Positions 49,916 through 61,500 of a DNA stretch of 64,000 bases are shown here, in pieces. The translations under genes and the position numbers were made by a program. The stretch is from Bacteriovorax sp. Seq25_V. GTDB lineage: Bacteria > Bdellovibrionota > Bacteriovoracia > Bacteriovoracales > Bacteriovoracaceae. The notes beneath the pieces are model-generated. The model did not search any database, was not told the origin of the DNA, and saw only the letters and a list, made by a program, of their open reading frames with translations. Each line of letters opens with the position of its first letter. The first letter of the stretch is position 1. The stretch spans positions 310,001-374,000 of the forward strand of contig NZ_AUNI01000021.1 in assembly GCF_000447795.1 (NCBI RefSeq), read 5' to 3'.

Positions 49916-50005
49916 TAGGTAGCGGCTCTTTTTACCTAGTCATCTAAGCTTCGTTAAAGTTTGATAAAATGCTAATGATAATAACATCTTAAATAAGGTT
50001 TGAAG

Positions 50006-50812
50006 ATGAATACTAGAGCATTTACCTTAGCACTCGTCATCGCAATTTTTGCAATGTTCATGGTCCATACATATGTTGAAGATCAAAAAACTGAATTAGT
50101 AAAAAGATATGGTTCAATGACATCTGTTATTGTAGCCAAAAAAGATATTGGAGAGTTTGAATTAATTGATGATTCAAAAGTGACAATCATTTCTGTTCCG
50201 CAAAGATTTGTATCTCCTGGAAGCTTTAAAACAATGAAGGAAGTAGAGAATACAATTGCAACTGTTCCAATTTTAAAAGATGAGCAAATAACAAAACCAA
50301 GAATTACATATCCAGGTGAGAGTACGGGTCTTTCAAGAGAAGTATCCGTAAATAAACGTGCCGTTTCAATTACTGTTTCGGATCAAACTTCAGTTTCAAA
50401 ACTTATCAAACCAGGGGATAGGGTTGATGTTCTAGCAGCTATTGATTACTCGGGTAGAAGAGATAGACAAAAAATTATGACAATCCTTCAAGACGTTAGA
50501 GTTTTATCAACAGGGAGAAATATATCAAATAATCTTCCGGTAATTGGTGTACAAACTCCTAAAGTAATTAAGCAGATGAAGCTAAACACATATAGTAATT
50601 ACAACTCTGTAACATTAGAGCTAGATCCATTCGAAGTACAAAAGTTAATTTGGTTATATCAATATGGAGAAAGTACTCCTTACTTAATTCTTAGAAATAT
50701 TAATGACAAGGAAAAAGTTCGTATTGAAGGAACTAGACTCTACGACATTCTTGGAGAAAAAGATCAAGTTGAAGCTAAGAAATTCTTCCAAGATAAATAT
50801 GAGAAACGATGA
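50006..50812 (+). CDS. cpaB: CpaB/RcpC, Tad pilus assembly protein
   Basis: Periplasmic, membrane-anchored protein with SAF domain that supports secretin function. 268 residues. Anchor at residues 5-20, SAF-type domain TSVIVAKKDIGEFELIDDSKVTI near 41-70, then PILKDEQITKPRI and the RcpC block INKRAVSITV-like VNKRAVSITVSDQTSVSKLIKPGDRVDVL. ATG at 50006 with AAGG seven bases upstream is preferred over TTG at 50000. Confidence 0.92.
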   Translation: MNTRAFTLALVIAIFAMFMVHTYVEDQKTELVKRYGSMTSVIVAKKDIGEFELIDDSKVTIISVPQRFVSPGSFKTMKEVENTIATVPILKDEQITKPRITYPGESTGLSREVSVNKRAVSITVSDQTSVSKLIKPGDRVDVLAAIDYSGRRDRQKIMTILQDVRVLSTGRNISNNLPVIGVQTPKVIKQMKLNTYSNYNSVTLELDPFEVQKLIWLYQYGESTPYLILRNINDKEKVRIEGTRLYDILGEKDQVEAKKFFQDKYEKR

Positions 50813-52296
50813 TTATAAAAAACTTATTTAAATTATTATTTATGACAATTCTCTGCTTCTCAAGTGTCGCTCAACTGACGCCAAAGGAGGAGAGAATTGA
50901 AATTTTTATGGGAATCGATAAAGTAATCCGTCTGGATTTCGTACCGACAACGATAAAAGAAATTGCCGATAATACAGTTGTTGATATGACGTTTGTTCCT
51001 CAGAAAAGAGAGATTACAATAAAAGGTTTAAAACCCGGAGTCTCTTCAATATCTGTAAGAAATGATGCCACAAAAGATATTGCGATTAGATATTTTGTTA
51101 CTGTAACAGCGACTGAGAAAACAAAAGTTATCAACGAACTTAAAGATTTTTTCAGTGATATTGAAGGGGTTGAGGTTGGAATCAAAGGTGGGAAGGTTTA
51201 TGTCGGTGGTCGCCTAGTTGTTCCAAGTGATATTGGTAAGGTTGTTTTGTTTTTAGATGACTATAAAGATGTGTTGAATCTTCTCGAAGTATCGCCGCAA
51301 ACATACCAGATCATTGCAAAAGAAATGCAAGAAGGTATGAGAAGAAATAATCTTAAAGATGTGACTGTGAGATTTTTTAATAACTCATATATTCTCGAGG
51401 GAATTGTTGGTTCAGAAAAAGAGAAAGAGCTTGCAACAAAGATTGGAATTACTTACTTACCAGATAGAATTGAAAGTTTAGCGAGAAGAACAGATTCTGT
51501 TCAAAAGCTTGAACAAGAAATTATCAAAAACTTCATTGTTGTCAATGAAACGGAACCACCGCCTAAGCCAGTGAAGATGATTAAGTTCACTGCTCAGTTT
51601 GTCGAGTTAACAAAAGACTATAGCAAAGTTTTTGGGTTTAAATGGAATCCAACACTTGGTGGAGAAGGTGGAAGTATTTCTTTTGGTCGTACTTCATCGG
51701 GTGGAGTATCTACAAGTTCAGATGGGACTCTCTCTGGAACTATTTCACAGCTATTCCCAAAATTAAACTCAGCTAAAGCAGCTGGTTATGCCAGAATCGT
51801 TCAGTCAGGGATGATTATTGCAAAAGATAATGAGAATGGAACAATTACAAGAAAGACCAAAAAGAACACAACTCTTGGGACTGGAGAGTTTCAACAACCA
51901 ACATCAATTGATGCCGGGTTTGATTTAAAGCTCAAAGGTACAATCATGCCAGAGGAGAAAGTTAATATCGAAATTTCACTCGGTGTAAGTTTTGGATCAG
52001 GAACAGATGTATTAGAAAATACCATTAACACAATTATTATCGTTAAGACGCGAGAGTCGGCAGTCGTCGGTGGAGTGTCATCGACAAAGTCATCAACACA
52101 ATTTGATAAAGATCCTCCTGGTGGAGCAGATACAGTAGAGGCCGGAACTGGATTCCCGTTATTCTCATTTATTAAGTCGAAATCACTACAAAGAAGTAAG
52201 GAGCAATTCGTTGTCTTTATTACGCCAGAAATTATCGACAGTGCATCACAAGGGTCTGAAGAAATTAAACGAAAGTTTAGAAAGAGGGGACAATAA
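50809..52296 (+). CDS. cpaC: CpaC/RcpA, Tad pilus secretin
   Basis: Outer-membrane secretin of the Tad machine, 495 residues. Signal peptide of about 22 residues (FKLLFMTILCFSSVA), an N-terminal pilus/BON-type region with GRLVVPSDIGKVV, and the secretin core with VNIEISLGVSFGS and the end VGGVSS, GFPLFSFIKSKSL, EQFVVFITPEII. ATGA overlap with cpaB and one-base overlap with the next gene. Confidence 0.93.
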   Translation: MIIKNLFKLLFMTILCFSSVAQLTPKEERIEIFMGIDKVIRLDFVPTTIKEIADNTVVDMTFVPQKREITIKGLKPGVSSISVRNDATKDIAIRYFVTVTATEKTKVINELKDFFSDIEGVEVGIKGGKVYVGGRLVVPSDIGKVVLFLDDYKDVLNLLEVSPQTYQIIAKEMQEGMRRNNLKDVTVRFFNNSYILEGIVGSEKEKELATKIGITYLPDRIESLARRTDSVQKLEQEIIKNFIVVNETEPPPKPVKMIKFTAQFVELTKDYSKVFGFKWNPTLGGEGGSISFGRTSSGGVSTSSDGTLSGTISQLFPKLNSAKAAGYARIVQSGMIIAKDNENGTITRKTKKNTTLGTGEFQQPTSIDAGFDLKLKGTIMPEEKVNIEISLGVSFGSGTDVLENTINTIIIVKTRESAVVGGVSSTKSSTQFDKDPPGGADTVEAGTGFPLFSFIKSKSLQRSKEQFVVFITPEIIDSASQGSEEIKRKFRKRGQ

Positions 52297-54530
52297 TGGC
52301 CGAAGGTCATATCATTACAGTAATTGGTGCTAAAGGCGGGGTTGGTAAATCTCAAGTCGCGGCTAACTTAGCATTTTCCCTTGTGGCGGAGTCGAGAGGT
52401 AAAACGTTACTTTTAGATTTTGACCAACGAGCAAGTGGTGATCAAAATTTAATTACTGGTATTAAAACTAAAAAGAATATGAAAGATCTCTTCACTTTTA
52501 GTGGAAATATTGATCCTCGAACCATTACACCTTTTTTAAATCCACATCCGGCAGGTGTAAATTATATTGGGCTTCCAAACGATCCGACAGCTACAGATGG
52601 TCTTGATTCAGAAGCAGCTGGGAAGTACTTAAAAGCCTTTACTTCGCTTTTCCCGATTACTGTTATCGATGGTGGTAGTGAATTAACTCCATTAACTTTA
52701 AAGGCATTAGAATTCTCAACGATGATCCTCGTTGTTGTTACTCCAGACTTATTGGCTTTAAATCAAACAAAGCGTTTGATGTCTGATTTAGTAACAATGA
52801 TGTTTCCAAAAGAAATGATTCATTTTGTAATGAATCAAGCACAGAAAGGACACCCTGTTACTCCTGATGTTGTTCAAAAAACACTCGGGCGTCCACTTCT
52901 AGGAACGATTATAAAAGATGATCAAACGTGTGCAATGGCGCTTAACCAGAGAAAGCCAGCACTTGTTGCACTAAAGAATAGTAACTTCTCAAAAGGTATT
53001 ACAGAGGTTGCAAGAAAAATTATTCAGTCAAATATTTTAAAACAGCTCGCTACACTTAATAGACCAAGCGGAGTATCTGTTAATAAGGGCGGTGGAGACT
53101 CTGCTGCTGGAGCACCTTCTAAAGGGGCTGCGAATGCGTGGCGTGACCTTAAGATTAGAATTCACAAAAGTCTTGTTGAAGAAATGGACCTTAGTGATGA
53201 TGATAAGAATGATCCGAAAGCAAAAATTATTTTAAAAGAGAAAACTAAGAAGTTAGTTGTCGATCTTCTCGGTAAAGAAGATACAAAAGGAATTCTAAAT
53301 TCTCGTGAAGATATGAATGCGATTGTGAAGGAAATTATCGATGAGGCCCTAGGATTAGGTCCTCTTGAAGATTTACTTGCAGATAGAACTGTTTCTGAAA
53401 TTATGGTTGTTGGACCAGATAAAATCTATTTTGAGAAAAGTGGAAAGATCAAGAAGTCAGAAGTTATTTTTACTAATGATAGGCAAGTTTTAAATGTTAT
53501 TGAAAGAATCGTTGCTCCGATTGGTAGAAGGATTGATGAAAAGACTCCTTACGTAGATGCACGTCTACATGATGGTTCGAGAGTTCATGCAATTATACCT
53601 CCGTCTGCTATTGATGGATGTTGTATTACTATCAGAAAGTTTCCTGAAGATCGATTAACGTATAAAGACCTCGTTAAATTCGGATCAATGACACAAAATA
53701 TGGCTGACTTTCTTCGTATTGCAGTTGAAGGGCATCGAAATATTATCGTTTCAGGGGGAACAGGATCTGGTAAGACAACACTGATTAATGTTCTTGGAAG
53801 TTTTATCCAAGCTAATGAGCGTATTATTACATGTGAAGACTCTGCCGAGCTAAACTTTCCTCAAGATCACGTTGTCCGTTTAGAGACGAGACCTCCTTCA
53901 TTAGAAGGAGATGGTGAAATCGATATTAGGCTTCTTGTTAAGCAGTGTCTTCGTATGAGGCCAGATCGTATCGTTGTCGGTGAGTGTCGTGGTGGTGAAA
54001 CACTTGATATGTTACAGGCGATGGGTACTGGTCACGATGGTTCATTGACAACAGTTCACTCGAATAATCCAAGAGAATGTATCGGTCGTATTGAGACTCT
54101 CGTTCAATATGCAGGTGCTGGACTTACCCCTAAAGCTATTCGTGAGATGATTGCATCGGCTGTTCACCTAATCATTCAGCAGCAAAGACTAGATGACGGT
54201 TCGAGAAGAGTTACTCACATCACAGAAATTGGTGGTATCCAAGGTGAAGTCGTTACACTACAAGATATTTTCCTTTTTGTTCAAAAGGGTATTGATAAGA
54301 ATGGAAAGATTATCGGTGAATTTCAAGCGACAGGATTTATTCCAAAATTTATCGAAACACTTGAAAAGAAAGGTTACAACGTGCCTCGTGGATTATTTAG
54401 TAATTCTTCTCCACCTAACCCTGCCGCAAGACCTGCGGCTCCGCAAGCTGGGGGAGCACCTAAACCTGGACAACCACCTCAAGGTAATCGTCCTCAACGT
54501 CCTCCTGGTAAGCCAGTTAAGAAAGAGTAG
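52296..54530 (+). CDS. TadZ(CpaE)-TadA(CpaF) fusion ATPase
   Basis: One frame of 744 residues that joins two Tad proteins usually encoded by separate genes. Residues 1-250: MinD/ParA-like TadZ with deviant Walker A KGGVGKS (13-19) and FDQRASG, but without the CpaE receiver domain. Residues 255-280: Gly/Ala/Ser linker. Residues 282-700: TadA/CpaF secretion ATPase with GPLEDLLADRTVSEIMV, Walker A GGTGSGKTT (487-495), Asp box CEDSAEL, Walker B RIVVGECRGGE and His box GHDGSLTTVHSN. The last 40 residues are a proline-rich tail (PAARPAAPQAGGAPKPGQPP). No stop or frameshift signal lies between the parts. TadZ places the machine, TadA powers it. Confidence 0.93.
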   Translation: MAEGHIITVIGAKGGVGKSQVAANLAFSLVAESRGKTLLLDFDQRASGDQNLITGIKTKKNMKDLFTFSGNIDPRTITPFLNPHPAGVNYIGLPNDPTATDGLDSEAAGKYLKAFTSLFPITVIDGGSELTPLTLKALEFSTMILVVVTPDLLALNQTKRLMSDLVTMMFPKEMIHFVMNQAQKGHPVTPDVVQKTLGRPLLGTIIKDDQTCAMALNQRKPALVALKNSNFSKGITEVARKIIQSNILKQLATLNRPSGVSVNKGGGDSAAGAPSKGAANAWRDLKIRIHKSLVEEMDLSDDDKNDPKAKIILKEKTKKLVVDLLGKEDTKGILNSREDMNAIVKEIIDEALGLGPLEDLLADRTVSEIMVVGPDKIYFEKSGKIKKSEVIFTNDRQVLNVIERIVAPIGRRIDEKTPYVDARLHDGSRVHAIIPPSAIDGCCITIRKFPEDRLTYKDLVKFGSMTQNMADFLRIAVEGHRNIIVSGGTGSGKTTLINVLGSFIQANERIITCEDSAELNFPQDHVVRLETRPPSLEGDGEIDIRLLVKQCLRMRPDRIVVGECRGGETLDMLQAMGTGHDGSLTTVHSNNPRECIGRIETLVQYAGAGLTPKAIREMIASAVHLIIQQQRLDDGSRRVTHITEIGGIQGEVVTLQDIFLFVQKGIDKNGKIIGEFQATGFIPKFIETLEKKGYNVPRGLFSNSSPPNPAARPAAPQAGGAPKPGQPPQGNRPQRPPGKPVKKE

Positions 54531-54537
54531 GTGATAG

Positions 54538-55428
54538 ATGTCATTTTTTCTAAGTTTAATTGGATTTAAAGGTTTAGTAGCTCTAATCGGAGTTATTCTT
54601 TTTTCATTTTGCTATAAGTATTCCGTGGGTATCTTTGATTTTATCGAAAGACAAACCATGGGGACGCGAACCTATATCTTAGAAAAATTTGATTTACTTT
54701 TTATTGAAGTCCAACCAGAAAAAATAACATACGCATTACTCGCCTTATCCTTAGGTTCAGGGGGAATTGTTATTATTATTTTTGGTATTCTTGGAAAGTG
54801 GGTAATGGGCTTTATTCTAGGGCTTGTTTTCGCCTTTGTTGGATTTAAAATACCTCGTCCTATTATAAATAATCTCGTTTCTAAAAGAGTTAAACAATAT
54901 GAAGCGCAAATGGTTGATGGGCTAACCCTTCTTGCCAATGGCCTTCGTGCGGGACTAAGTGTGCCACAGTCAATTGGCATGGTTGTCGATGAAATGCCGG
55001 CACCGTTATCACAAGAATTTAATGTTATGCTACAGCAAAATAGAATCGGTGTGCCACTAGAAGAATGTTTCGAAAACCTCGCCAAAAGGGTTCCAACCCA
55101 AGATAATGACATGTTTGTGAGCTCTGTAAATATTCTTAGAGAGACCGGTGGTAATCTCGCAGAGGTCTTCGATACTATTGTTGACGTAATTAGAGAACGT
55201 GTACGATTGAAGCAAAAAATTGATACTGCTACTGCTCAAGGGCGTTTTCAGGGTATGATTATGGCAGCTATGCCCTACGGAATTTTAATGATGTATGGAT
55301 CAAGTGATCCTGAGGCCGTTGGAAAAATGTTTAGCCATCCCCTTGGAATCATATTGTTTGTGGTCGCCACAGTACTTGATTTTATTGGAACTATGGTAAT
55401 TTTTAAGATTGTACAGATTAAAGATTAA
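54538..55428 (+). CDS. tadB: TadB, Tad inner-membrane platform protein
   Basis: T2SSF-domain platform subunit, 296 residues. Membrane segments near residues 5-25, 60-100 and 270-293; T2SSF domain begins MVDGLTLLANGLRAGLSVPQSI near residue 122 and includes RETGGNLAEVFDTIVDVIRER. In other Tad clusters a similar tadC follows; here the next gene is unrelated. Starts seven bases after the fusion ATPase gene. Confidence 0.92.
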   Translation: MSFFLSLIGFKGLVALIGVILFSFCYKYSVGIFDFIERQTMGTRTYILEKFDLLFIEVQPEKITYALLALSLGSGGIVIIIFGILGKWVMGFILGLVFAFVGFKIPRPIINNLVSKRVKQYEAQMVDGLTLLANGLRAGLSVPQSIGMVVDEMPAPLSQEFNVMLQQNRIGVPLEECFENLAKRVPTQDNDMFVSSVNILRETGGNLAEVFDTIVDVIRERVRLKQKIDTATAQGRFQGMIMAAMPYGILMMYGSSDPEAVGKMFSHPLGIILFVVATVLDFIGTMVIFKIVQIKD

Positions 55429-55495
55429 GTTTTTTCCGACTACTCCCGATAAGTGAACAGAGAACTCGGAAAGTCATACGAAAGGATTGTGAGTG

Positions 55496-57121
55496 ATGAA
55501 GAATTTTAAATTTTTTGTACTTTTAAGTATTTTTGCAACAAGCGCTCTCGCAGGCGTTAATTTAAAGAATGGTAACTTCCATATCACTTATACTGATATT
55601 GTTGTTCCTGGTGGTGGGCATGACCTCGTTATTGAGAGAACCTACAACTCTAGATCACCAGATAAAGGCTGGTTTGGTTTTGGTTGGGGATCTGACTACG
55701 AAACTTATTTGAATGTATCAGCAGATGGTTCTGTTGTTATTCATGAGAATGGTTCAGGTGCTACAACTAGGTTTGTTCCTAACAAGGCCGTAGATGCTGA
55801 AGCTGCTGCAAAGAAAATTATCGATGCTATGAGAAAGAAAAACTCTATCTCTGAATCAGTGGCAAGCTCTTTAGTAACAAAACTAAAGAATGATGCTGAG
55901 CTTAGACAAGCGTATGCAAAGAGATTTGATGTTTCAGCAAAACTCGCTGTTGGAACTGAGCTTTTCTCAAACGAAAGAGGGCTTCAGAAAGTTGTAAAGA
56001 CTAAAGACGGTTACTCTAGAAAGTATAACGATGGTAAAGAGCACCTTTTCAATGAAGATGGAAAGCTTGTTAAAGTTACTGACAAGAATGGGTATGTTGT
56101 TGATTTAAACTACTCAGGAAAAGAACTTAAATCTATTAAAGATTCAATGGCGAAACAAATTTTCTTCCAGTGGTACCCAGATGGAAAAATCAAGTCTGCT
56201 GAGTCGGGTGCAGGAAAGAAAACAGAATACGTTTATAAAGATGATAATTTAATCGAAGCCAAAGATATTGCTGGTAACGTATTTAAGTATGACTATGACT
56301 ACAATCACAATATGACTTCTATTGGATACAAAGATGGTTCTTCAATGAAGATCAAGTATACAAAGAAGACGCAGTTTGTAGAGGAAGTGACTAAGAAGAA
56401 TGGTGAGACAGTTGCTTATCAATATGAGTCAAACCCTAAGAATCCTGAATTTCACTACTGGACACTTGTTACAAAGAAAAACCCAGGTGGTAAAGATGTA
56501 ACAAATCGTTATGAGTATGAAATTAAAAGAAAGCCAGATGGTTCACACTATACATATAGAATTCTTACTGTTGTAAATAATGTATCGACTGAAACAATCT
56601 ATACAGAGTGTTGTTCTCTTCCAAAACAAATTAAAAGAGGAAACTTCGTAACTAACTTTGAATACAATAGCAAAGGTCTATTAGTTAAGAAAAACTCTTC
56701 TCGTGGTGATTATGTTGAACTCAAGTATCACCCAGAATTTAACAAGATTACAAATGTAACAAATAATAATGGTTGGACTAAGTTTGAGTACGATAAAAAA
56801 GGTAACTTAAAGAGAGCAGAAAACTCTAAGAAAATGTCAGTTCTTTTAACATATGATTCAAAAGGTAGAATCTCTAATATGTATGACATTGATAAGACTA
56901 CTAATAAGAAACGTGAGCTTAGCTTCGTATACAATGCACAAGGTAAGCCAGTAGAAATTAAAATGAGTAATGTTGGGAAAATCAATGTGAAGTATGACAA
57001 CTACGGTGAGATTTTAAAAGTTGAATCTGCAGCTGGGCATAAAATGGCATTACAAGTTACTCAGGCGTTCCAATCATTACTATCAATCGTTAAACCTGCA
57101 GGTGTTAACTTAAATATGTAA
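55496..57121 (+). CDS. Secreted YD-repeat (RHS-like) protein with DUF6531-type N-terminus
   Basis: 541 residues. Signal peptide of 19-20 residues ending ALA. Residues 20-110 match the N-terminal domain of RHS proteins (NLKNGNFHITYTDIVVPGGGHDLVIERTYNSRSP, GFGWGSDYET). From about 155 on, eight or more YD-type repeats, for example HLFNEDGKLVKVTDKNGYVVDLNY, TEYVYKDDNLIEAKDIAGNVFKYDYDYNHN and FEYDKKGNLKRAENS. It ends without the DPxGxxD core motif or any toxin tip. ATG at 55496 is chosen; GTG at 55493 fits AAAGGA slightly better. Follows tadB by 67 bases; a role as surface or pilus-exported protein is speculation. Confidence 0.85.
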   Translation: MKNFKFFVLLSIFATSALAGVNLKNGNFHITYTDIVVPGGGHDLVIERTYNSRSPDKGWFGFGWGSDYETYLNVSADGSVVIHENGSGATTRFVPNKAVDAEAAAKKIIDAMRKKNSISESVASSLVTKLKNDAELRQAYAKRFDVSAKLAVGTELFSNERGLQKVVKTKDGYSRKYNDGKEHLFNEDGKLVKVTDKNGYVVDLNYSGKELKSIKDSMAKQIFFQWYPDGKIKSAESGAGKKTEYVYKDDNLIEAKDIAGNVFKYDYDYNHNMTSIGYKDGSSMKIKYTKKTQFVEEVTKKNGETVAYQYESNPKNPEFHYWTLVTKKNPGGKDVTNRYEYEIKRKPDGSHYTYRILTVVNNVSTETIYTECCSLPKQIKRGNFVTNFEYNSKGLLVKKNSSRGDYVELKYHPEFNKITNVTNNNGWTKFEYDKKGNLKRAENSKKMSVLLTYDSKGRISNMYDIDKTTNKKRELSFVYNAQGKPVEIKMSNVGKINVKYDNYGEILKVESAAGHKMALQVTQAFQSLLSIVKPAGVNLNM

Positions 57122-57224: not shown

Positions 57225-57422
57225 ATGAAAAAGATATTATTAATGATGACTATATTGAGTACTTTAAATATTGTAAATGCTGCAGAAGGCGCTAAGGTTG
57301 GTGAAGGTGCTGGAAGTTGTGATGATGTTGTAAACTGCGCCAGTGGTAACTGTAAATCTACTACAGCTTCAGATAGTTCGGAGAAAAAGGATGAAGCGAC
57401 GTCTAAAGGTAAATCAAAATAA
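57225..57422 (+). CDS. Small secreted cysteine-containing protein 1
   Basis: 65 residues. Signal peptide of about 19 residues (ILLMMTILSTLNIVNA) then a small mature part with three Cys (SCDDVVNCASGNC) and a Lys/Ser/Glu tail. GAAGGAGA precedes the ATG; TTGGTG and TAAAAT 16 bases apart (about 57178-57204) fit a sigma-70 promoter. Own terminator. Unknown function; similar in plan to the small secreted proteins at 57674 and 61306. Confidence 0.72.
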   Translation: MKKILLMMTILSTLNIVNAAEGAKVGEGAGSCDDVVNCASGNCKSTTASDSSEKKDEATSKGKSK

Positions 57423-57448: not shown

Positions 57449-57479
57449 GAAAGCCTGGTTTAAAGCCAGGCTTTTTTTA
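57449..57479 (+). terminator. Terminator after small secreted protein 1
   Basis: AAAGCCTGG / CCAGGCTTT with a seven-base loop and a run of seven T. Confidence 0.93.
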
Positions 57480-57523
57480 TTTCAGAATGCCTAAAATAAA
57501 ATCAATCAGCCGTTTCTGTACAT

Positions 57524-57553
57524 TTTATACACACTGTCGAATATTTATACACA
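57524..57553 (+). repeat. Tandem TTTATACACA sites upstream of sigma-54 promoter
   Basis: Two exact copies of TTTATACACA, at 57524-57533 and 57544-57553, 20 bases apart (about two helical turns), 60-90 bases upstream of the -24 element. The placement is typical of binding sites for a sigma-54 activator. The core TTATACAC occurs inverted at 61200-61207 before the second sigma-54 promoter. Confidence 0.55.
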
Positions 57554-57613
57554 ATAGTAATAACTAAAAGGCTTTAAGTTGTTAATAAGAGGTGGAGTAC
57601 CTTAACTCCAAAT

Positions 57614-57629
57614 TGGCACGTGCTGTGCA
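57614..57629 (+). promoter_or_regulatory. Sigma-54 promoter of small secreted protein 2
   Basis: TGGCAC at 57614-57619, five bases, GTGCA at 57625-57629. The GG and GC pairs have exact -24/-12 spacing; only one base differs from TGGCAC-N5-TTGCA. It lies 45 bases before the gene. Confidence 0.85.
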
Positions 57630-57673
57630 ATATATAAAACAAACAACTAACCATTAATATCTAGGGGGATATG

Positions 57674-57856
57674 ATGAAAGCTTTAATTTTAACAGTATTA
57701 GTATTAGGAAGTGTATCAAACGTATTTGCAATGTCAGAAGAGTCTGAAACAAGTTGTGAGAAGACAGTTCACGTGAGCGCTTATCAAGAAAGTGTTCCTG
57801 CTGGTGAAGTAAGAAAAGAAGCTGAAGCAGGCAAGAAAGAAGCAACAAGAAAATAG
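57674..57856 (+). CDS. Small secreted protein 2, sigma-54 controlled
   Basis: 60 residues. Signal peptide of about 19 residues ending NVFA, mature part of about 41 residues with one Cys (ETSCEKT) and a Glu/Lys-rich tail ending RK. AGGGGG lies five bases before ATG 57674, so the ATG at 57671 is less likely. A sigma-54 promoter and tandem activator-type sites precede it and a strong terminator follows, so it is a monocistronic regulated unit. The NVFA-M/I-SE junction resembles the protein at 61306. Function unknown. Confidence 0.75.
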   Translation: MKALILTVLVLGSVSNVFAMSEESETSCEKTVHVSAYQESVPAGEVRKEAEAGKKEATRK

Positions 57857-57866
57857 AATTAATATC

Positions 57867-57893
57867 GAGGGCCACACTAGTGGCCCTTTTTTA
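57867..57893 (+). terminator. Terminator after small secreted protein 2
   Basis: GGGCCAC / GTGGCCC with a four-base loop and a run of six T. Confidence 0.94.
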
Positions 57894-57916
57894 TTTCCTG
57901 TAAATTACATATACCC

Positions 57917-57922
57917 TATAAT
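57917..57922 (+). promoter_or_regulatory. -10 box of the aldehyde dehydrogenase gene
   Basis: TATAAT overlapping the first in-frame ATG (57921). If it is the -10, that ATG cannot be in the message, which favours the next ATG at 57948. The -35 (TTTCCT, 17 bases upstream) is weak. Confidence 0.55.
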
Positions 57923-57947
57923 GAAAGAAAACTTAGGGGTATATTTC

Positions 57948-59309
57948 ATGCAAGATATCAATCAGTACTATCAAGACGTCACAGCTACGCAGAATAACTT
58001 TAAAGACATTTCAAAGCGCTTGGTAGCTCTAGAAAAGCTTAAAAGCTCAATAACTGAAATGAGTAGTGAAATTGCAGATGCTCTTAGAAAAGATCTTGGG
58101 AAGTGTGAGTTTGAATCTTATCTTTCGGAGATCGATTTTGTTCTACATGAGATTGATGTTGCTAAGAAAAATATTAAAAAGTGGTCAAAACCTAAGAGGG
58201 TTAGTTCTTCTTTAGCCTTCTTCCCTGTGAAAAGTTATATTGTTCCTGAGCCTTATGGAACAGTTCTCATTATTGGCCCATGGAATTATCCATTTCAGTT
58301 GGTTCTTGCCCCTTTGGTTGGTGCAATCGCAGCTGGAAATACCTCCATTATAAAGCCATCTGAAATGGCGCCACAGACCTCGAAAGTTATAACAGAGCTT
58401 ATTAATAAAACATTTAGCAAAGAAGTAAAGTGTGTTGAAGGAGGTGTCCCGGAGACTACTGAACTTCTAGATTTAAAATTCGATTATATTTTCTATACTG
58501 GTAATGGTGTGGTTGCGAGAATCATAATGGAGAAGGCCTCGAAATTTCTTACACCTTTAACCCTTGAGTTAGGAGGGAAAAGTCCATGTATGATTTTTAC
58601 TGCAAATCTAAACCTCGCTGCAAAGAGAGTTGTGTGGGGGAAGTTCTTCAATGCGGGACAAACCTGTGTAGCTCCTGATTATATTATGATTCAGGAAAAA
58701 GATAAAAATTCATTTATTAATGAGATGAAGAAATGGATTGAGTTTTTCTATACAAGTGAAGTTAAGTCTAGTCCGAATTATGGGCGAATAATCAATGAGA
58801 GACACTTTGATCGCTTAACTAAATATTTAAGCGAGGCGAAGGTACTTCTTGGTGGGGGGCATGAGAGAGAGTCTTTGTTTCTTGAGCCAACGGTTGTAGA
58901 GGGTGATTTAAATCACGCAATTATGAAAGAAGAAATATTCGGACCGATACTGCCAATAGTAATCGTAAAAGACTATGAAGAGGCGCGTGATTACGTCCTT
59001 AAGAATGATAAGCCGCTTGCTAGCTATGGCTTCTTTGATCGTGAAGAAGATAAATCTAAATTTGTTAAAGAAATTTCATCTGGTGGGATGGTAATTAATG
59101 ATACATTGATTCACCTGTCTAATGAAAAACTTCCGTTTGGTGGTGTTGGCGAAAGTGGGATGGGGGCTTATCATGGAGCTTACTCATTTGATATTTTTAG
59201 CCATAAAAAAGCATTGATGAAGAGAAGTTTTATGTTTGAAAACTCTTTGCGTTATCCTCCTTATGAAGGAAAACTTAATCTTATTAGAAATATTATGAAG
59301 TACCTTTAA
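57948..59309 (+). CDS. NAD(P)-dependent aldehyde dehydrogenase, class-3 type
   Basis: Oxidises aldehydes to acids. 453 residues, the length of class-3 / fatty-aldehyde enzymes. IIGPWNYPFQL with the catalytic Asn, IKPSEMAPQTS with the cofactor Lys, YTGNGVVARIIM, LELGGKSPC with the general-base Glu, NAGQTCVAPDY with the catalytic Cys, EEIFGPILPIV. C-terminal residues are basic and hydrophobic as in membrane-associated class-3 enzymes. ATG at 57948 is chosen because AGGGG lies eight bases upstream and the earlier ATG overlaps a TATAAT. The stop overlaps the next start in TAATG. Confidence 0.93.
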   Translation: MQDINQYYQDVTATQNNFKDISKRLVALEKLKSSITEMSSEIADALRKDLGKCEFESYLSEIDFVLHEIDVAKKNIKKWSKPKRVSSSLAFFPVKSYIVPEPYGTVLIIGPWNYPFQLVLAPLVGAIAAGNTSIIKPSEMAPQTSKVITELINKTFSKEVKCVEGGVPETTELLDLKFDYIFYTGNGVVARIIMEKASKFLTPLTLELGGKSPCMIFTANLNLAAKRVVWGKFFNAGQTCVAPDYIMIQEKDKNSFINEMKKWIEFFYTSEVKSSPNYGRIINERHFDRLTKYLSEAKVLLGGGHERESLFLEPTVVEGDLNHAIMKEEIFGPILPIVIVKDYEEARDYVLKNDKPLASYGFFDREEDKSKFVKEISSGGMVINDTLIHLSNEKLPFGGVGESGMGAYHGAYSFDIFSHKKALMKRSFMFENSLRYPPYEGKLNLIRNIMKYL

Positions 59310-60148
59310 TGCCGAAAATCAGTGTTATCATACCTACTTATAATCGCTCGTTGTTCTTAGCTCGAGCGATTGATTCTGTTTTAAGTCAAACCTATAAAGA
59401 CTATGAACTTATTATTGTTGATGATGGCTCAACTGATAATACTGAGTTCGTTGTACAACCATACTTAGAGGCTAATGAGAAGATAAAATTCTTGAAGACT
59501 GATAACAATGGGGTAAGTCATGCTCGAAATTATGGATTTAAGAATTCTCTTGGTGAATGGGTTGCATTTCTCGACTCTGATGATCAATGGTTACCAAATA
59601 AATTAGAGAAACAAATCCAAAAAGCTAATGATTTACCAGAGTCACTTATTATCTACACTGATGAGAAGTGGATAAGAAATGGAAAATTCGTAAATAAGAA
59701 AAAGTATCATCAGAAGTATGGGGGAAATGTTTTTGCCGAATGCCTGAAGTCATGCTTTATTGGACCTAGTACGGTGTTACTAAAGAGAGAGTTATTAGAA
59801 CAGTATGCTGGATTTGATGAAAATTTTCCTGTTTGTGAGGATTACGATCTTTGGTTAAAAGTATCCCTACATCATGATGTTGTATTAATTCCAGAGGAAC
59901 TGGTAGAGAAATATGGTGGGCATGATGATCAACTATCTACAACAACTCTTGCCATGGATTTTTGGCGAGTTAAGGCGATTTGCAATTTGATGGATAATTA
60001 TGAGCTTGATAGTGAGCAATCAAGGAAAGCAATTGAAGTACTAAAAGTGAAGAGTGATATTCTTTTAAATGGTTATAGGAAACATGGAAATATAAAAGAT
60101 TATAATGAACTAAATGATCTGATTAAGAGTAAAATTAAAGGCCCATAA
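59309..60148 (+). CDS. Glycosyltransferase, family 2
   Basis: 279 residues, GT-A fold. SVIIPTYNRSLFLARAIDSVLSQTY at the N-terminus, nucleotide-sugar motif VDDGSTDNTE, metal-binding DSDDQW and acceptor-side GFDENFPVCEDYDLWLK with the ED base. Acceptor and donor unknown; no polysaccharide cluster is near. Coupled to the aldehyde dehydrogenase gene by a one-base overlap. The stop codon lies in the loop of the terminator. Confidence 0.93.
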   Translation: MPKISVIIPTYNRSLFLARAIDSVLSQTYKDYELIIVDDGSTDNTEFVVQPYLEANEKIKFLKTDNNGVSHARNYGFKNSLGEWVAFLDSDDQWLPNKLEKQIQKANDLPESLIIYTDEKWIRNGKFVNKKKYHQKYGGNVFAECLKSCFIGPSTVLLKRELLEQYAGFDENFPVCEDYDLWLKVSLHHDVVLIPEELVEKYGGHDDQLSTTTLAMDFWRVKAICNLMDNYELDSEQSRKAIEVLKVKSDILLNGYRKHGNIKDYNELNDLIKSKIKGP

Positions 60149-60160
60149 GGGCCTTTGTTA
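60137..60160. terminator. Bidirectional terminator
   Basis: AAAGGCCC / GGGCCTTT with the loop ATAA. The loop contains the glycosyltransferase stop codon; the T-rich sides serve both convergent genes. Confidence 0.8.
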
Positions 60161-61105
60161 TTTTACACAGTAATATGAATACTCTTTTGCGTTGATAGAG
60201 CGAGGAGATCTTACTGGACTTGGGTTCATTAAACCTGGGTGATAAACCATTCCACCACTGATTGCCCAAACTCGACGTCCAATTGACACACCACCATTCC
60301 AATCTCCAAAAGCATCTATTGCTTCAAGTTCATCTGCACTTGGTAATCTTGCTCCTCTATTTTTACATGCGCTCTCAGCTTGTCTCATGCTAGTTGCTTT
60401 ACCTATAGTGCCATTGTGAGTCCCTACGAGTTGTAGACTTCTCCCATTGATAAAAAGAGTGTTTGGAAATTTAGTTCCTTGAAAGTCTTCGAAGATTCGT
60501 GATGCGATTTGTGACATTACTACGCTTGGGGAACCTATGGCTTGATATGAAGACGTGTTTCCATTGTTATCAACCATAGTTAAAGTAACTTGAATATTTC
60601 CTTTGCAGTTCGGTGCAAATGAATATGTTCCGTAAGCAATATAATCAACAAGAGAATAAGAGTCAGCTGGGACATAACCAGTTCTTCTATCATTGCTGGC
60701 ATTATTGATAATTGTTCTAATATCATTCATATGACGAAATTGAAATTTACGATCAGAGACGGGGTAGCTTCTATAGTAACCATCAAGATAACCTTTAAGA
60801 GAATTCTCCAGTGTTACGTCGAGATACTTATGTTGAGTTGCAAGATAAAGATTTTTATCATACATGGCATCGAAGGTTTGAAGCATTTGTAGAGCTTCTT
60901 TTCCTTTGGCCCCTGCCTGCATAAGATCAGAGGCAAGCCCAACCATATCTTGCATATATTCATAACGAGTTTGTGAATATGCTTGTTTATAAGCGCAAAG
61001 ATCAGCCCCTCGAATAAATGGGATTGAGGCCCACATTGTTTGAGATTTTGCTTGAACTACAGATGTTAGTGCAAGAATTGCGACAAGATACTTAATTAGT
61101 TTCAT
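60158..61105 (-). CDS. Secreted protein with DUF1566-like C-terminus
   Basis: 315 residues. Signal peptide of 19 residues ending VVQA. C-terminal 80 residues resemble Lcl/DUF1566 and sulfatase-modifying-like domains: ACKNRGARLPSADELEAIDAFG, VWAISGGMVYHP and the final YSYYCVK, with Cys residues probably paired. The N-terminal 200 residues are unassigned. ATG at 61105 is chosen because AGGAG lies eight bases upstream and the signal peptide then starts properly; the frame extends 23 codons further. Confidence 0.78.
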   Translation of the reverse strand: MKLIKYLVAILALTSVVQAKSQTMWASIPFIRGADLCAYKQAYSQTRYEYMQDMVGLASDLMQAGAKGKEALQMLQTFDAMYDKNLYLATQHKYLDVTLENSLKGYLDGYYRSYPVSDRKFQFRHMNDIRTIINNASNDRRTGYVPADSYSLVDYIAYGTYSFAPNCKGNIQVTLTMVDNNGNTSSYQAIGSPSVVMSQIASRIFEDFQGTKFPNTLFINGRSLQLVGTHNGTIGKATSMRQAESACKNRGARLPSADELEAIDAFGDWNGGVSIGRRVWAISGGMVYHPGLMNPSPVRSPRSINAKEYSYYCVK

Positions 61106-61257
61106 AGATAAACTCCTAATAGATATTTCTACTGTAGCTGAAATAAGATTAAGGACTATGAAAGGTGTAAACAATACAGAGGTGTCAAAAGATTAGACAG
61201 TGTATAAGAAGCAATCAGTAATAGGGAGGTAAGTAATTGATTTAATGAAGTATGAGT

Positions 61258-61273
61258 TGGCATGACCTGTGCA
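61258..61273 (+). promoter_or_regulatory. Sigma-54 promoter of small secreted protein 3
   Basis: TGGCAT at 61258-61263, five bases, GTGCA at 61269-61273, same spacing and same GTGCA -12 form as the promoter at 57614. GTGTATAA at 61200-61207 upstream is the inverted core of the 57524 repeats. Confidence 0.82.
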
Positions 61274-61305
61274 TTAATTTTAGTAATACTAATTGGGGGT
61301 TTAAA

Positions 61306-61500
61306 ATGAAAAAATTATTACTAGTTCTACTATTAACAACTAATGTTTTCGCAATCAGTGAATCAAACACAGATCAGGGTACAGACACACAATGTCTACA
61401 TAAAGGCTATTATAAAGAAATGGCAGAGATTGATCAGATGCTTGCTAATAGTAATAAAGAAGAATCTAAGGCCGTTGAACCAACGACATTAAGGCGTTAA
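61306..61500 (+). CDS. Small secreted protein 3, sigma-54 controlled
   Basis: 64 residues. Signal peptide of about 16 residues (LLLVLLLTTNVFA), mature part of 48 residues with a single Cys (TQCLHKG) and a charged tail ending RR. TTGGGGG lies six bases before the ATG. The frame could open at 61252, but that ATG lies just before the sigma-54 -24 element and cannot be transcribed from it. Plan, single Cys and promoter are like the protein at 57674. The stop overlaps the convergent gene by four bases. Confidence 0.75.
   Translation: MKKLLLVLLLTTNVFAISESNTDQGTDTQCLHKGYYKEMAEIDQMLANSNKEESKAVEPTTLRR

Follow-up and report, generated by a model that had tools for sequence, protein, structure and literature searches.

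Small exported single-cysteine peptides with sigma-54 promoters at a Bacteriovorax counterpart of the Bdellovibrio hit locus

Gene order of the locus

The stretch analysed here, 64,000 nucleotides of contig NZ_AUNI01000021.1 of Bacteriovorax sp. Seq25_V (the window), carries two genes for small exported peptides, pep1 (57674..57856, 60 residues) and pep2 (61306..61500, 64 residues), in a locus that resembles the hit locus of Bdellovibrio. Their open reading frames bear out the signal peptide ending in NVFA and the single cysteine that a preliminary description of this DNA had pointed out for each; a third small secreted peptide, pep0 (57225..57422, 65 residues), and the lifestyle-switch module next door had escaped it. 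All lie on the forward strand, where the end of a Tad/Flp (type IVb) pilus cluster (50000..55428), with reading frames for a CpaB/RcpC-like protein, an RcpA/CpaC-like secretin, a fused ParA-TadA ATPase and a TadB-like protein, is followed by an exported RHS/YD-repeat protein (55493..57121; Pfam RHS_repeat and DUF6531) and then by pep0, pep1 and pep2. A terminator-like stem-loop to which no strand is assigned (57450..57479) separates pep0 from the promoter of pep1, and given the forward-strand terminator at 57867..57892 the predicted pep1 transcript is monocistronic.

Sigma-54 promoters

Both pep1 and pep2 are preceded by a forward-strand sigma-54 element, TGGCACGTGCTGTGCA at 57614..57629 and TGGCATGACCTGTGCA at 61258..61273 respectively, each with GG at -24 and GC at -12, 10 bases apart, which is the canonical spacing. 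The pattern TGGCAN6KTGCA, found twice in the window against 0.12 expected, occurs only 10 times in the 3.45-Mb genome. Since searches with the peptide sequences were too weak across genera, synteny with an aldehyde dehydrogenase, and then with the RHS gene, was used to find their counterparts. Orthologues of pep1 and pep2 are present in the same genus, and each one found there has a sigma-54 element 48-60 bp ahead of its start codon. Furthermore, the order pep0, pep1, aldehyde dehydrogenase, pep2 recurs in other genera of the family, with a sigma-54 element before pep1 and pep2 and none before the pep0 counterparts. Promoter elements and orthologues are thus both conserved in relatives, and the original proposal withstands this comparison. 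The GTGCA form of the -12 box, put forward as a shared trait, is indeed common to the two window promoters but is not conserved, TTGC, CTGC, ATGC or TCGC being found elsewhere. The window genome has a single rpoN, six genomes giving one match each; RpoN of B. bacteriovorus HD100 is encoded by bd0843 (PMC3464611). It thus appears that pep1 and pep2 are each transcribed from a sigma-54 promoter of their own. In other families TCGC replaces TTGC in the -12 box at eight of the loci collected, with a palindrome upstream in most of them.

A palindromic operator

A common site upstream of the two promoters is real, but it is not TTATACAC as initially proposed. That sequence occurs at chance frequency (3 copies in the window against 1.8 expected, 24 of 100 shuffles reaching 3) and is not conserved, and it was rejected as the activator site. 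DnaA boxes, one of which TTATACACA resembles, were likewise dropped, since the copies sit inside palindromes. Alignment of 19 promoters at the -24 box instead brought out a 17-bp palindrome, TGTC-N9-GACA, which is often in tandem and whose left edge precedes TGGC by about 57 or 75 bp, the copies of TTATACAC lying within or at the edge of such palindromes. Before pep1 a weak upstream copy, TGTACATTTTATACACA (57517..57533, matrix score 4.9), contains the first TTATACAC and is followed by the operator TGTCGAATATTTATACA (57535..57551). Before pep2 the operator TGTCAAAAGATTAGACA (61183..61199) is followed by a weak second copy, TGTATAAGAAGCAATCA (61201..61217), which contains most of the inverted TTATACAC and is placed by its aligned position only, its matrix score of -0.3 being not significant. 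No strand is assigned to these four sites. The notion of one common activator site is hence supported, at 60-100 bp upstream.

When 18 related genomes were scanned for the palindrome 32-62 bp before TGGC-N8-TGC, operator and sigma-54 element were found together at 73 places, against 1 for the reversed pattern that served as control. The gaps between the two fall into three groups (37-42, 45-51 and 56-61 bp, with none at 43-44 or 52-55), a grouping that points to helical phasing, the period that fits best being, however, closer to 9-9.5 than to 10.5 bp. In order to limit circularity, a matrix was built from 57 sites before other target genes only; its sites are thus held out, but the idea behind it is not, the seed pattern having come from the peptide promoters. 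With this matrix a score of at least 6 is reached by 47 of the family's 53 sigma-54 peptide promoters, where shuffling gives an expectation of 0.8, and in the window the sites at 61183 (21.4) and 57535 (16.1) rank first and second, with the next best at 10.0. A conserved stretch of the CTAAGTGCTTNNAATTT type is seen between operator and -24 box at four loci of the 40-bp-gap class, which raises the question of an IHF-like bend or a site for a third protein.

Correspondence to the hit locus

The RHS/YD protein has a single-copy match in 221 of 241 genomes of the phylum, including the one that carries Bd0108. In this genome (G102) the match is followed by a 101-residue protein ending in the published residues 73-101 of Bd0108 (PMC3818213), and we take it to be B. 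bacteriovorus HD100, position c.127 of Bd0108 being at 97052 as compared with 97049-97051 in PMC11323537. After Bd0108 comes a 66-residue exported single-cysteine peptide with the element TGGCACACGCGATGCA, immediately 5' of which lies the palindrome CGTCTCATCCTGAGACA. The window likewise has an exported RHS/YD protein of the Bd0109 type and adjacent Tad/Flp genes, which occupy the position of the Tad operon bd0110-bd0119 (PMC5430801) and precede the RHS gene in relatives too. Furthermore, pep0, which has a counterpart directly 3' of the RHS gene in almost every genome examined, shares with Bd0108 its position and its nature as a small exported peptide, no significant similarity between the two having been shown; the small peptides of Halobacteriovorax marinus are likewise reported to lack homology to Bd0108 (PMC4267844). 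Sigma-54 peptides follow the RHS gene in 35 of the 38 loci of the window's family (f1), the three misses including a locus (L307) that is only short and whose genome has the peptides, and one or two such peptides are present in 17 of 17 Bdellovibrio genomes. Judged by its Tad operon, its Bd0109-type RHS/YD gene, the peptide in the position of Bd0108 and the sigma-54 peptides, the window locus corresponds to the hit locus of Bdellovibrio, and the link to the predatory life cycle that had been suspected is thereby supported.

In several Bdellovibrio species (six loci) tandem sigma-54 peptides follow Bd0108, the second being of a distinct type, SCPRSNNGLFKNTAATSSN. The RHS/YD protein of the window has a pair of cysteines at residues 373-374 that is conserved in the family; being present in 37 of 51 sequences and absent from Bd0109 of HD100, the pair was rejected as a general disulfide partner.

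A transcript published as non-coding RNA

The peptide that follows Bd0108 in HD100 coincides with a 261-bp transcript (96455-96716) that has been published as a small non-coding RNA whose level is low in attack phase and elevated in every bd0108 mutant (PMC3818213), and which is absent from the portion of the attack-phase small RNA table of PMC3627812 considered here. The reading frame, complement(96483-96683), lies within the published extent, and both primers used for reverse-transcription PCR (RT-PCR) map inside it; RT-PCR as described in PMC3818213 leaves the strand unsettled. From a sigma-54 element beginning at 96758, transcription is predicted to start near 96732 on the minus strand. 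Between HD100 and genome G080 the frame shows 15 synonymous and 3 nonsynonymous differences (nonsynonymous divergence, dN, 0.02; synonymous divergence, dS, 0.47), and 12 and 1, respectively, between HD100 and G099. From this pattern of substitution it can be gathered that the frame is evolving as a protein. Indeed, its signal peptide, ribosome site and single cysteine are kept in 17 of 17 Bdellovibrio genomes. The RNA, on the other hand, folds no better than shuffled sequences (z +0.40) and matches no Rfam family at the cut-off. Since there is protein-level selection, since the published extent spans the frame and the primers fall inside it, and since no RNA structure was found, the transcript is most likely the mRNA of the peptide.

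The regulon and its candidate activator

By a simple rule a signal peptide is predicted for 41 of 52 genes behind operator sites, against 17 of 58 window genes (P=2e-7), and most of these targets are larger than the peptides. The family of small exported peptides that had been postulated is supported, but the regulon does not consist of tiny peptides only, and in the window's family the operator appears to serve a set of exported proteins, mostly larger ones. Members of about 157 residues (MK..ATTGSLTLEG...), without assigned function, are common to two genera, as are others of 110-114 residues. In Bdellovibrio no large regulon with this layout was seen, a pattern scan of HD100 giving the hit-locus promoter and one other place.

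At least five GAFTGA-containing activators are encoded in the window genome; three further activator-like proteins lack this motif and are probably not sigma-54 dependent. One candidate, E3, is a protein of 523 residues with a weak PocR-like sensor and no receiver domain. Its gene is located at C10 near 15510 in the window genome and at complement 141140-142690 in HD100. An operator-like site (TGCCGAAAAGTTNRACA or similar) is found upstream of E3 orthologues in 7 of 8 relatives and also upstream of the window genome's own E3, and as this upstream site overlaps a possible -35 box, self-repression is plausible. A full-length orthologue of E3 is present in each of 20 genomes that span the phylum, usually with a palindrome-like sequence upstream, and the DNA-binding helix is nearly invariant. 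On account of the operator before its own gene, which recurred for no other activator checked, the phylum-wide orthologues and the near-invariant helix, E3 is the likely activator and the best candidate. The candidates E1, E2 and E4 were rejected, as no operator was found upstream of their orthologues in the eight relatives, where the one other high score lies 348 bp upstream of an E2 gene.

Properties of the peptides

The 53 sigma-54 peptides of the family are 53-79 residues long and all have exactly one cysteine after residue 18, and in other families one cysteine is found in 27 of 29; the rule for their collection asked for a signal peptide and a sigma-54 element, but not for a cysteine. 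The single cysteine is thus a general feature, whereas the two basic residues noticed at the C-terminus are not, being found in only 2 of the 53. Beyond GE-x-C followed by S-x-R in many of them, the sequences are variable, with a net charge from -11 to +7, low complexity and tails rich in disorder-promoting residues. The window peptides have no lipobox; in them the cysteine is reached only about 9 and 13 residues beyond the cleavage site at NVFA. The peptides gave no match above the curated cut-offs of Pfam and NCBIfam, and a weak match to Cor was dismissed as being below cut-off. In three genomes paralogous peptides have closely similar mature parts and different signal peptides (3 synonymous and 9 nonsynonymous differences in one pair), which may reflect either recent duplication or gene conversion.

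Possible function

Taken together, the observations are in our opinion best explained if the single-cysteine peptides, an old set in Bdellovibrionota encoded just 3' of the Bd0109/Bd0108 module and under control of sigma-54 and E3, act with the RHS/YD protein and a Bd0108-type partner, and we consider this probable. E3 would sense a signal and bind the palindromes 60-100 bp upstream, probably regulating its own gene as well; sigma-54 polymerase would then transcribe the peptide genes, and the peptides, once exported, would act in the periplasm or at the surface together with the RHS/YD protein and the Bd0108-type partner so as to adjust the pilus and the growth-mode signal. The conserved cysteine would probably make a disulfide with a partner or with a second copy, and in the window's family E3 would drive a wider set of exported proteins. 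What makes us prefer a role in the same complex to that of a free signal is the behaviour of Bd0108, a disordered protein with weak binding to Bd0109 and an influence on both piliation and growth mode (PMC3818213, PMC4267844). More tentatively, and with rather more doubt than confidence, one may envisage a phylum-wide switch in which E3, as sensor and activator, has the exported single-cysteine peptides made by way of sigma-54, and these compete or cooperate with the Bd0108-type peptide on a periplasmic RHS/YD protein, the peptides reporting the state of pilus or surface and thereby setting predatory or growth mode. Over-production of the sigma-54 peptide would in that case account for part of the phenotype of bd0108 mutants.

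Several facts weigh against the favoured explanation. By a strict rule a sigma-54 peptide is present in only about half or fewer of the loci of other families examined (5 of 9, 3 of 10 and 9 of 15 in three groups), some further loci having the TCGC variant of the -12 box, and homology between the peptides of the window's family and those of Bdellovibrio cannot be proved from their weak sequence similarity. The clearest palindrome of HD100 is separated from the -24 box by a mere 8 bp, a position unusual for an activator, so that it could be a repressor site there. The match of E3 to the PocR domain (17.8 bits) is below the cut-off of 23.9. Finally, the connection of the peptides with Bd0109, Bd0108 and the pilus rests on neighbourhood and on the rise of the transcript in bd0108 mutants.

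It could be argued that the peptides are released signals or weapons, serving as a contact cue or directed at prey or kin, which do not touch the RHS/Bd0108 module and owe their place beside it solely to expression of the region at the stage of surface contact. They are after all exported, small and variable, have recent paralogues with similar mature parts, and are in the window's family co-regulated with many exported proteins. Such a function is nevertheless unlikely, since it is in poor agreement with the strict adjacency to the Bd0109-type gene across families and with the response of the HD100 transcript to bd0108 genotype (PMC3818213). Marginally less improbable, yet still doubtful, is that the operator is bound by another activator, be it E1, E2, E4, E5 or an undetected enhancer-binding protein, and that the palindrome at E3 is unrelated. 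Several such proteins are present and binding by E3 is a prediction, but operator-like sites lie upstream of E3 and not of the E1, E2 and E4 orthologues, a comparison that did not cover E5 systematically, and E3 is present in all genomes of the phylum tested. That the HD100 transcript is a regulatory RNA, as it was interpreted from RNA-seq and RT-PCR (PMC3818213), its reading frame being incidental or secondary in a dual-function RNA, is made very improbable by the low dN relative to dS, indicative of purifying selection on the protein, by the features of the frame kept throughout Bdellovibrio and by the lack of both a stable fold and an Rfam family. The chance frequency of TTATACAC might even suggest that the shared promoter features are a coincidence in an A+T-rich genome, but the conservation and the held-out matrix reduce this to a negligible probability.

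Relation to known systems

No genetic switch between predatory and prey-independent life is better known than the hit locus. Loci of the window type have its gene order of Tad operon, RHS/YD protein and small exported peptide, with Bd0108 itself in G102, but add to it one to three single-cysteine peptides, each with its own sigma-54 promoter, which are not described as genes in PMC3818213 or PMC4267844. Across the phylum, our reading would thus enrich the hit locus with further exported peptides, a promoter dedicated to them, an operator and a candidate for their activator. As for the published RNA of HD100, it agrees with the peptide gene in position, primers and extent, but is here read as the mRNA of a 66-residue exported peptide under selection at the protein level; recast as the message of a peptide that rises on loss of Bd0108, it would open the question of how Bd0108 and Bd0109 signal to growth to direct tests in a tractable strain. 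In H. marinus SJ the homologue of Bd0109 also has two small signal-peptide neighbours, BMS_0183 and BMS_0184 (PMC4267844), which are most likely pep0 and pep1 of genome G007, given our assignment of that genome, but no promoter, operator or further copy is mentioned there. A regulon mostly of exported products fits the view of sigma-54 as a controller of the cell exterior (PMC3162934), an account that does not mention Bdellovibrio, whereas here a single operator and a candidate activator are proposed in Bdellovibrionota. The attack-phase regulon of FliA (PMC3627812, PMC5430801) is similar in exerting global control over predation-stage genes, the Tad operon included, but it depends on another sigma factor, and the transcript of the HD100 peptide is low in attack phase. 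No account of sigma-54 acting on peptides of the hit locus came to light in our search of open-access papers.

Neighbouring genes

The aldehyde dehydrogenase between pep1 and pep2 (57921..59309, forward strand) is a conserved neighbour, but was rejected as a partner and is probably not part of the system, since tandem peptides occur in other species without it in between. A 315-residue exported protein on the reverse strand (60158-61105) adjoins pep2 only in the window genome, and its orthologues, present in about one quarter of 58 relatives, occupy other genome positions. When named genomes were scanned with an aldehyde dehydrogenase alignment, the matches were for the most part to unrelated bacteria, Halobacteriovorax sp. 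SP2999 being the one close record. The downstream flank is conserved and comprises a 112-residue protein, a CheY-like protein and Lon, and both it and the upstream flank are kept in the SP2999 record as well.

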